Assembly: GCF_000711695.1 (NCBI RefSeq)
Contig: NW_013546904.1
Location: forward strand, 1-54,394
From: Tilletiaria anomala UBC 951
Lineage: Eukaryota > Basidiomycota > Exobasidiomycetes > Georgefischeriales > Tilletiariaceae
DNA: 54,394 nt
Direction: 5' to 3'
The position numbers were made by a program, and so were the translations under genes. Positions within the stretch are counted from its first letter, which is position 1. Every line of letters starts with the position of its first letter. Positions 15,382-18,958 of this stretch are shown here, in pieces. The notes beneath the pieces were generated by a model. The model was given only the letters and a program-made list of their open reading frames with translations, did not search any database and had not been told where the DNA came from.

Positions 15382-16497
15382 TTACAGCTTTTGCATCGCT
15401 GCAATGTCAGAACTCTGTACCAGCTCTTCAAATTCGGCGACTCGTTCCTGGAGATCGTCAAGCGAGACCTTCTCGTCCTCGACGACGATGGTGATCTGCA
15501 GTTTGCTGACACCGTATCCGACGGCGACGAGCTTGCTGGCACCCCAGACGAGGCCATCCATTTCGATGGAGCGGACAGACTCCTCAAGCGCCTTCATGTC
15601 CGTCTCATCGTCCCATGGCTTGACTTCGAAAGTGACGACAGACTTGGCCGCTGCACGGGGACCCTTGGCGGCCTTCTTTTTCTCGTACTCGGCGACGCGC
15701 TCGGCCTTGATGCGTTCAGCCTCCTCGTCCACTTCGTCATCTGAGCCGAAAAGGTCGATGTCGTCGTCATCGTCAGCTGCGGCAGCACTGCTCTGAGCGC
15801 CGGCGTTTGCAATGTTGCTGTGTGCATTTGAAGATGAGAGAATATAGGAGTTAGATAGGGGGTGAGCATCTCCCGACGAAGAAAGGCACACTCACCTGAG
15901 AATGTTGGCAGCCTGTTTCTTGTCACCCTGCAGACTGGGGTGCTCTGCCTCCCAGGAAGCGATGTGGGTGTACCAGCGTGCTACATGAGGGTACTTGTCG
16001 GCGTTGGGGGACTTGATGACCTCGAAGACGGCAACGTCGGCCTGCGAAGGTGCGTGCCTGACGGCAAGGCAAGGGGTGTGTCATGTCAGCTTGACGGCCC
16101 ATGTATGGAGGACACCACGATCGAGTGAAAGGGCCCATCTTTAGTGTCGAGCATTTCCTTCCTTCGTCCTGCCAAACCCCTCCGCCCCCTGTGGCAGAGG
16201 GTTTTCATGCAACGATAAATCAGATAGCTTGGAAAAAGGTTGGTTTCGTCAAAGCGAGAAGAGTCGCGGGGTCTTACGCCGCTGGAGCTCGGAAACACGG
16301 ACCAAAGCAAAGTATTCATCATTTTGTCCCTTCATTCCTAATTTCCTTCCCATGTCCATCGGCCGGGCGAATGAGAGAGGAAGACAATGCCATGAACTTG
16401 TGCGTAGGCAAACTCACCCATCGACGTAGGATTTGTCGACAAGGTACTTGTCGAAGGCACCGAGGGTGCTGTCCTGGGTGAAGTCTGGGAGCGACAT
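15382..16497 (-). CDS. EFB1: Translation elongation factor 1-beta (eEF1B alpha)
   Basis: EFB1 is the guanine-nucleotide exchange factor for eEF1A in the cytoplasm. Exons are 16497-16418, 16057-15896 and 15817-15382 (225 residues, normal length). The N-terminal helical domain has [13 protein letters not shown] and [12 protein letters not shown]. An acidic hinge follows ([18 protein letters not shown]), then the exchange domain with [31 protein letters not shown] and a C-terminal MQKL. The first intron is 360 bases, much longer than others here, and holds a C/D snoRNA (16327-16215). The gene is divergent from the ING gene. Confidence 0.95.
16215..16327 (-). ncRNA. SNR18: Box C/D snoRNA snR18 (U18), in EFB1 intron 1
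   Basis: Read on the minus strand, the intron holds a box C ATGATGA (16322-16316) and a box D CTGA (16223-16220) about 93 bases apart, flanked by AAA and TTT that can begin a terminal stem. Starting 7 bases after box C is TTGGTCCGTGTTTC. This is the reverse complement of GAAACACGGACCAA, a highly conserved segment of large-subunit rRNA. In budding yeast, snR18 guides 2'-O-methylation in this same segment (25S A649 and C650) and is also encoded in the EFB1 intron. A weak D' box (CGAG) follows the guide at the right distance. Exact ends are estimates. Confidence 0.88.
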
Positions 16498-17066: not shown

Positions 17067-18958
17067 ATGCCTCGCCAGTCTTCTGCCAACAACGCTCCCG
17101 CAGCCACCACGGCTTCCTCCTCCCACATGCAGCCCCCCACGCCAGCCGGCTACATGATACAGAAACGCCAGGCCGCTTCCTCCTCGTCGGCAGCGGCCGC
17201 GCCCTATGCACATCTGCAGCACCCTCCGCCCTCGGCACAGGATCTGACCCTCTTCACATCCCTCGCCGCCTATGCTGACGCACTCGATGCTCTGCCCCTC
17301 GACCTAACACGCAGCTTCTCCGATCTCCGAGAGCTGGATGCTGTACTAGGAGGTGAGAGCAGAGTCCACCCTTCGCGCCAAAAAATTGCCCGTGTTATGC
17401 CTGACAGGTCCATGACGCCACCCCCTTGCAGCACACATCTCTTCTCTTACCGCAAGACTCGCCTACCTCACATCCCTCATAGAAGACCCAAACATTACCC
17501 CCGGCGAGCGTCTCGTCGCACTCAAAGAAGTCGCAGAAGAGGCCAGAGCATACAAAATGGGAGGCGAAGACAAGATCCGCGTAGCAGTCAACACAGCAGA
17601 GATCGTGAGTGTGAACACAGTTTCACCGGCGTGTGCTTCTTTTCTGAAGCGTACTTGTTCCACATCCATTTCTCTTGATCAGATAGTGTCCCACACAGAT
17701 TACATCGACTCGCTCCTCGACAACCTCAACTCGGTTCACTCCCTGTCGCCATACCTGGACCCAGTGGCATATCTACGCGGAAAAGGCATCATCCCAAGCA
17801 CTTTGAATCCCGATGGGCTCGTCACTGCGCTCGGCGGAACTTCTAGCTACCGCGGAGGTGGCGTGGCAGGCGGTTCCGGTGCTGGCAGCATGTCCGGCTA
17901 CTACAATGGAGCAGCATCAGAGTCTCTCACAGCAGTAAATAGCGGGAAGAAGAGCCGCAAGACCGCGTCTGGAGCGACTGTCGCTGGTGGTGGATCTGCA
18001 GTAGCACAGGGTGGGGCCTCGGCTAGCGACAGAAGGTCCTATCAGAGCGCCGCTACCGCTCGCGATGTCTCGCTCTCTGCGGCCGTGCCTGCGTTGAGTG
18101 CAAGCGCAGGCACATCCGTGGCGAGCAAGAAACGAAAAGCACCAGGCGGAGCTGCATCGTCTTCCTCCGCCGCTAAAACCGCTCGTGCTGATCAAGATGA
18201 TGCTGTCCTGCGAACCGACAAGCGCATGGCAAAATCGAACAGCAGAACCGCCCACTCTTCTGGTGTCCGGTCAGCAGAGTACGGCGATGCGCTGGATCAC
18301 CAGGACGGAGTTTCCGCTGCTGCTTCCCGCCTGTCCGGACGGGGTCGCAATGCACGCGCTTCGTCCAAACTCGACACGACCGAGGATGAGGGGGAAGGGA
18401 ATGGCCATGCGATGCCTTTGGGCGGCTACGGCAACGAGGTCGCGACATTCAGTCGACGCGGGAGCCGTCCACCTGCTGCTGGCTCGTCAGGTGGCGGTGT
18501 TGGTTTGCCTGGTGCTAGTGCCTCGGATGGACTGCTCGACGGTTTACCGCGCGGCCATCGCATTTCAGCCGGAGGTCCAACCGGGCCGGACGGGCTGCTG
18601 CCTCCTGTAGGCGGTCACACCGACGGCAGTACCGTGCCGCCGCCCGGCTTTGTGCCCGAGGAACGGCGGTACTGCTACTGCAACCAGTTCAGCTTTGGCG
18701 AGATGATCGGATGCGACGACGATGATTGCGAACGGGAATGGTTTCACATCGATTGCGTCGGCTTGGAGAAGCCTCCGTCGGGAACGTGGTACTGCGAAGA
18801 GTGCTCGCAGCGGAGGGTGAGTTACAAGTTGCGCCGCGCCCAAGTCGCTGTTTCCGCACTGTTCTGACCATTTGCTTGCCATCCCTCGTTTGAAGCAACG
18901 GAAAGCCAAGAAAGGGAAGAACGGGACCGGCGGCTCGGGCCGCTCCGGGCGCAAATGA
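17067..18958 (+). CDS. ING-family PHD-finger protein (histone acetylation/deacetylation complex subunit)
   Basis: ING proteins read H3K4me3 through a C-terminal PHD finger and tether HAT or HDAC complexes (yeast Yng1, Yng2, Pho23). Exons are 17067-17352, 17432-17604, 17683-18816 and 18896-18958 (551 residues). The N-terminal ING helical region spans the first three exons (ALPLDLTRSFSDLRELDAVL, then LVALKEVAEEARAYKMGGED, HTDYIDSLLDNLNSVH). A long Ser/Ala/Gly-rich linker follows. The PHD reads CYCNQFSFGEMIGCDDDDC, then WFHIDCVGL and GTWYCEEC, with all Cys4-His-Cys3 ligands present. The short last exon is a basic tail (QRKAKKGKNG) of the kind that binds phosphoinositides in INGs. Which paralogue it is cannot be decided by eye. 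Confidence 0.9.

Follow-up and report, generated by a model that had tools for sequence, protein, structure and literature searches.

A U18-like box C/D snoRNA in the first EFB1 intron of Tilletiaria anomala and its address in common with budding yeast

The EFB1 homologue and its first intron

The sequence analyzed in this work (the window) is a stretch of 54,394 nucleotides from the basidiomycete Tilletiaria anomala UBC 951, and the gene that concerns us lies on its minus strand. As read from the sequence, this gene comprises three exons and its spliced product spans 225 amino acids. Exon 1 (16418..16497, 80 nt) ends in KSYVD-GG, in phase 2, and the reading frame continues from this GG into exon 2 (15896..16057), followed by an exon 3 (15382..15817) that encodes an acidic region and the exchange-factor domain. 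The first intron (16058..16417) is exactly 360 nt long, runs from GTGAGT to CAG and contains a likely branch point, CUGAC (16085..16089), which was located by motif scanning and starts 32 nt before the intron end. The second intron (15818..15895, 78 nt) yields no Rfam match, either at gathering cut-offs or with relaxed E-values.

The identity of the gene is established by its product. The exon 3 frame matches the Pfam families EF1_GNE (4.9e-32) and EF-1_beta_acid (7.9e-13), and the exon 2 frame, taken alone, matches no Pfam family. When compared with structure chains, the spliced product matches those of eEF1B: 1f60_B, which we take to be the yeast eEF1B chain, over residues 134-225 (5.9e-32), and 5dqs_D over residues 5-75 (1.1e-16). 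The host gene is EFB1/TEF5, coding for the nucleotide-exchange subunit of eEF1B. Within the window, intron lengths were compared across EFB1 and the next gene, and the 360 nt of EFB1 intron 1 stand against 78 nt for its intron 2 and 79 and 78 nt for the two introns of the plus-strand neighbour (17067-18867). The C-terminal part of this neighbour resembles, as judged by eye, an ING-type PHD finger.

All the elements of a box C/D snoRNA announced in a preliminary description of this DNA (box C, box D and a 14-base guide within the 360-base first intron of EFB1) are present. On the minus strand, the predicted RNA extends over 16214..16328, with ends that were placed by reading the sequence together with a SNORD18 match at 16249-16327, and is approximately 113-115 nt in length; taken as 16327-16215, it is flanked by 90 nt of intron on the donor side and 157 nt on the acceptor side. 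A motif scan places box C, AUGAUGA (ATGATGA in the DNA, 16316..16322), ahead of box D, CUGA (CTGA in the DNA, 16220..16223), in agreement with the RUGAUGA and CUGA consensus. The two boxes are enclosed by a short and weak terminal stem of five pairs with one C.A mismatch, in which G16328 pairs with C16214, A16327 with U16215, and AAA (16325-16323) with UUU (16219-16217). The guide predicted to pair with rRNA, TTGGTCCGTGTTTC (RNA UUGGUCCGUGUUUC), occupies 16292..16305, and its core UGGUCCGUGUUU lies directly 5' of box D', CCGA (16289..16292; consensus CUGA), whose first base is also the final C of the guide. A C' candidate, UUGACGA, is found at 16246..16252, and between D' and C' there is a possible accessory guide, UAAGAC (16271..16276), for which a six-base pairing with the large-subunit (LSU) rRNA just upstream of the target may be possible. 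Both D' and C' deviate from consensus; judged by k-turn pairing geometry, they would keep the C-G pair and the two sheared G.A pairs, with a C.C pair replacing the usual U.U.

Chance, decay and the U18 family

Box-like words are easily found in DNA, and it must be asked whether an intron containing them might also carry an accidental complement to rRNA. Eight box C and box D frames are found in the window under the criteria set here, the EFB1-intron frame being one of those that satisfy them, and a frame of this type is by itself weak evidence. Loose matches to the guide are not much more telling: with up to two mismatches the guide has a single match in the window, yet at least one such match appears in 24 of 100 shuffled windows, and hence only a near-exact match counts as evidence. 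The match observed is an exact 14-mer, of which 1.6e-6 copies are expected by chance in the intron, and the complement of the guide has one exact copy in the 18,410,546-base assembly (1 forward, 0 reverse), where the reversed-pattern control returned 0 and 0. The arrangement of box C followed by the guide was sought in 20000 Markov introns and recovered in none of them with zero or one mismatch, in one with up to two, in two with up to three and in 11 with up to four, and it has no exact match in collections of viral, bacterial and archaeal contigs, which attests to the rarity of the combination but has no bearing on its conservation among fungi; an LSU pattern, for its part, has no match in the viral contig collection. 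Given an exact guide and boxes in the correct order and spacing, all within the intron that hosts snR18 in yeast, we regard a chance resemblance as hardly credible.

Assignment to a family rests on both the covariance model and the individual elements. An Rfam search of a 701-nt region (E<=10, 4227 families) returned two matches, the best of which was SNORD18 (RF00093), with 25.1 bits and an E-value of 0.027. The same locus is matched at an E-value of 2.1 when the whole window is searched, and in a search of the 18.4-Mb assembly at E<=10, which scored 59 of 1351 first-look candidates, it was the one SNORD18 match to be reported (E 0.169). The covariance search suggested by the preliminary description thus singles out SNORD18 in this region, but with a score of 25.1 bits that falls short of the RF00093 gathering cut-off (41 bits), a detection threshold rather than a biological definition, so that automatic annotation as RF00093 does not follow; at gathering cut-offs, Rfam gives no match over the whole window. 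Of the 14 control genomes from prokaryotes, 10 also contain SNORD18 matches below the cut-off, which, together with the low score, means that the score alone is no proof of a SNORD18 RNA. The low score can be attributed to the greater length of the fungal RNA, since the match stops roughly 26 nt short of the actual box D. The only two further Rfam matches, nse_sRNA in the 701-nt region and Vax2os1_2 in the window with relaxed E-values, fall far below their cut-offs and were taken as chance.

In the alignment to SNORD18, neither box C (AUGAUGA) nor the guide core UGGUCCGUGUUUC departs from the RF00093 consensus, which the last 13 of the 14 guide letters reproduce, whereas D' reads CCGA instead of the CUGA of the model, and the model is 71 nt long. 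The vertebrate SNORD18 also differs in its host, which is RPL4 rather than an eEF1B gene. A non-consensus D' and C', combined with a score below the cut-off, is what might be expected of a decayed U18 copy, in which boxes persist after particle formation or guiding have been lost and either a working copy operates elsewhere or the site is left unmethylated. Boxes C and D, together with the core of the guide, are nonetheless intact in the EFB1 intron, and the assembly provides neither a second exact copy of the guide nor a second reported SNORD18 match among the candidates scored. Moreover, the C' and D' boxes of yeast U18 are described as similarly non-consensus in an RNA that is active (PMC5389607). 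Decay is hence, in our judgement, very improbable, and we proceed on the reading of the intron as host to a U18 homologue.

Predicted processing and methylation target

Expression of this RNA is presumed, and its processing route is the one that we infer from yeast and Fusarium. Following transcription and splicing of the eEF1B pre-mRNA, the intron lariat would be debranched, and exonucleases would then trim it back to the particle bound at the C/D boxes. Release from the intron is presumably dependent on debranching, as in Fusarium graminearum, where putative intronic U18 and U24 are reported to drop upon deletion of FgDBR1 (PMC9606315).

Once in its particle, the guide adjoining D' would pair with GAAACACGGACCAA, which we take to be the conserved target segment of the LSU rRNA, and fibrillarin/Nop1 would methylate the 2'-OH of the A located five pairs from D'. 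The D-plus-five rule assigns U16297 to the A of GAAACA, the predicted equivalent of yeast A649, human A1313 and Neurospora A635. The targets given for RF00093 members are human Am1313 and, in the numbering of that paper, yeast Am647 (Hoeppner and Poole, PMC3511168). The rRNA itself was also sought in the assembly. Searching the 18.4 Mb for the complement of the guide, and thereby for the LSU target segment, returned only the snoRNA, and a 5.8S search, in which 39 of its 771 candidates were scored, was negative at E<=0.001. A further rRNA-like pattern was discarded, as its 7 scattered matches with one or two mismatches compare with 8 for the reversed control. U6 was found in the assembly with 78.3 bits, which indicates that small-RNA searches of this assembly do work.

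The preliminary description had envisaged methylation at the equivalents of both A649 and C650, and here our analysis leads to a different expectation. Yeast U18 is reported to methylate two neighbouring nucleotides by virtue of a D' box, AUGA, that lacks the first C and a C' box, AUGAGUGA, with an extra base; with position 1 of D' changed to C, modification drops at the second site but not at the first, and deletion of the extra C' base alone has little effect (PMC5389607). In T. anomala, by contrast, D' starts with C and is preceded by U (CCGA), and the C' candidate (UUGACGA) is free of any insertion. Since the features linked to the yeast doublet are absent from D' and C', one main methylated A is predicted, and a single site appears more likely than the pair seen in yeast. 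This difference provides a natural comparison for the mechanism of two-site methylation worked out in yeast U18.

Host-guest pairs in common with yeast

The genomic address of the RNA also bears on its origin. The yeast EFB1 intron is about 366 nt long and its snR18 about 102 nt, close to the 360 nt and approximately 113 nt of the locus described here, and exon 1 of yeast EFB1 has 80 nt, the same length as its T. anomala counterpart. The two introns also interrupt the gene at the same junction, KSYVD-GG|G-HAPSQA in T. anomala versus KSYIE-GG|T-AVSQA in yeast, the yeast joint having been deduced by translating intron-removal primers (PMC2705663) and being fixed to within one nucleotide. That yeast snR18 is hosted by EFB1, as given in the preliminary description, is stated in the same source, which places snR18 in the TEF5/EFB1 intron and snR38 in that of TEF4 (PMC2705663). 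Guide family, host gene and intron junction are therefore shared with S. cerevisiae. EFB1 has likewise been described as the snR18 host in Candida albicans (PMC2926782). Neurospora crassa resembles T. anomala in having intronic U18 (CD46A and CD46B) with a D' guide and a listed target at 26S Am635, but has two 89-nt copies (PMC2780460), as opposed to the one copy reported here. We found no statement on U18 in a basidiomycete EFB1 in a literature search conducted mostly without subscription papers. As far as their available text goes, a Pleurotus ostreatus survey lists SNORD24 among seven snoRNAs and makes no mention of SNORD18 (PMC5040776), and PMC8522698, PMC5482813 and PMC6171561 contain nothing on snoRNA host position.

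A shared address might nonetheless be a coincidence, and we examined four yeast hosts (EFB1, ASC1, TEF4 and RPL7), three of which carry the expected guest in T. anomala, the snR38-like one with a score below cut-off. The first of the additional cases is U24. A SNORD24 match at C11:4555-4645 (L010:1501-1591) reaches 41.8 bits over a cut-off of 41 (E 4.5e-5), while a second genome match remains below it, at 22.2 bits; among the 14 prokaryote controls, 11 have matches below the cut-off and none above it. An intron of 245 nt houses the U24 match, and the exons on either side identify the gene as the RACK1/ASC1 homologue by their matches to RACK1/Asc1 chains. On 3frx, presumably yeast Asc1, the alignment of the upstream part ends at residue 179 and that of the downstream exon starts with its second residue, at 181; exon 1 of yeast ASC1 consists of 179 codons. 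In the exon searches, 4d6v, which we assume to be Gib2 from Cryptococcus, ranks first among RACK1-type chains, in one search behind repeat WD40 chains, a weak hint in keeping with a basidiomycete. In yeast, ASC1 is reported as the host of snR24 (PMC4848094).

The RACK1 homologue bears too on the length of the EFB1 intron, which the preliminary description had explained by the snoRNA within it. Intron 1 of EFB1 is indeed far longer than the other introns compared, but the first intron of RACK1 (L010:675-1038) reaches 364 nt and neither Rfam nor a looser C/D scan detected a snoRNA in it; some other element may reside there. Hence, snoRNAs alone do not account for intron length, and length by itself is no snoRNA signature.

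The third pair involves the eEF1B-gamma gene (PF00647), of which a 266-nt intron carries a snoR38 match (L014:735-823, on C107) with 34.5 bits and an E-value of 0.0085, below the 45-bit cut-off, overlapped by a snoR26 match of 26 bits (cut-off 47). The joint, AIARY(G|TT)AS, falls in the same codon as that of yeast TEF4, AIQFY|VANQ, again as deduced from primers. Elsewhere in this gene, at approximately L014:1702-1824 and flanked by two of its exons, lies a second box C/D-like frame (GTGATGA, with CTGA 81 and 119 nt on) that has no Rfam match and may be due to chance or represent an unlisted snoRNA.

RPL7 is the host in which the expected guest was not found. Its homologue (L016) matches PF08079 with 70.2 bits, a second match to this family (L017) being weaker and below cut-off. 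The locus shows no Rfam match at E<=1 and no strict C/D frame on the plus strand, nor does a looser scan reveal one in intron 1. This first intron (L016:954-1509) measures about 556 nt, with boundaries set by eye. The position of the RPL7 intron is conserved in all eight intron-poor fungi compared by Lim et al., a set that includes Ustilago maydis and Pseudozyma hubeiensis, and according to a figure legend in that work those introns carry box C/D snoRNAs (PMC8476143). Some Candida relatives are also reported to lack snR39 and snR59 (PMC5033589).

The main alternative to common descent is that a true U18 entered an old EFB1 intron independently in this lineage, the shared address being a product of convergence. 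Genes for eEF1B are highly expressed and hence good snoRNA hosts. Furthermore, snoRNA mobility is described as ongoing, and non-orthologous snoRNAs have been noted in equivalent ancient introns across all eukaryotes (Hoeppner and Poole, PMC3511168), while loss and re-insertion of snoRNA-bearing introns is reported for three fungal snoRNA clusters, with some Basidiomycota involved as well (PMC3596301). On the other hand, such a move would have to be reconciled with three yeast guest-host pairs coinciding in orthologous hosts, and with EFB1 and TEF4 introns that both sit at the yeast joint, and we consider it distinctly unlikely. The intron very probably encodes a U18 (SNORD18/snR18) homologue that was inherited, together with the intron, from an ancestor common with budding yeast. 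The earlier proposal that the association of U18 with EFB1 predates the split between Ascomycota and Basidiomycota is, on these sequence comparisons, well supported, because the guide agrees with SNORD18 in 13 of 14 letters and occurs once in the assembly, and because the junction is shared with yeast EFB1 and accompanied by the U24 and snR38-like pairs.

By itself, the U18-EFB1 locus is ordinary, and its interest lies in the depth and repetition of host-guest conservation and in the prediction of a single methylated site. Mobility across eukaryotes is a trait often ascribed to snoRNAs. The three pairs that this fungus shares with yeast, two of which (EFB1 and TEF4) lie at a joint documented in yeast, speak for certain addresses having stayed in place since before the split. 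It is tempting, though rather unlikely to be right, to suppose that the addresses in eEF1B genes and RACK1 are held not by inertia but by selection coupling the output of these genes to LSU methylation, with a U18 C'/D' motif that has shifted to a C.C core and serves a single site. Fixed addresses of this kind make the role of co-expression with eEF1B and RACK1 testable.
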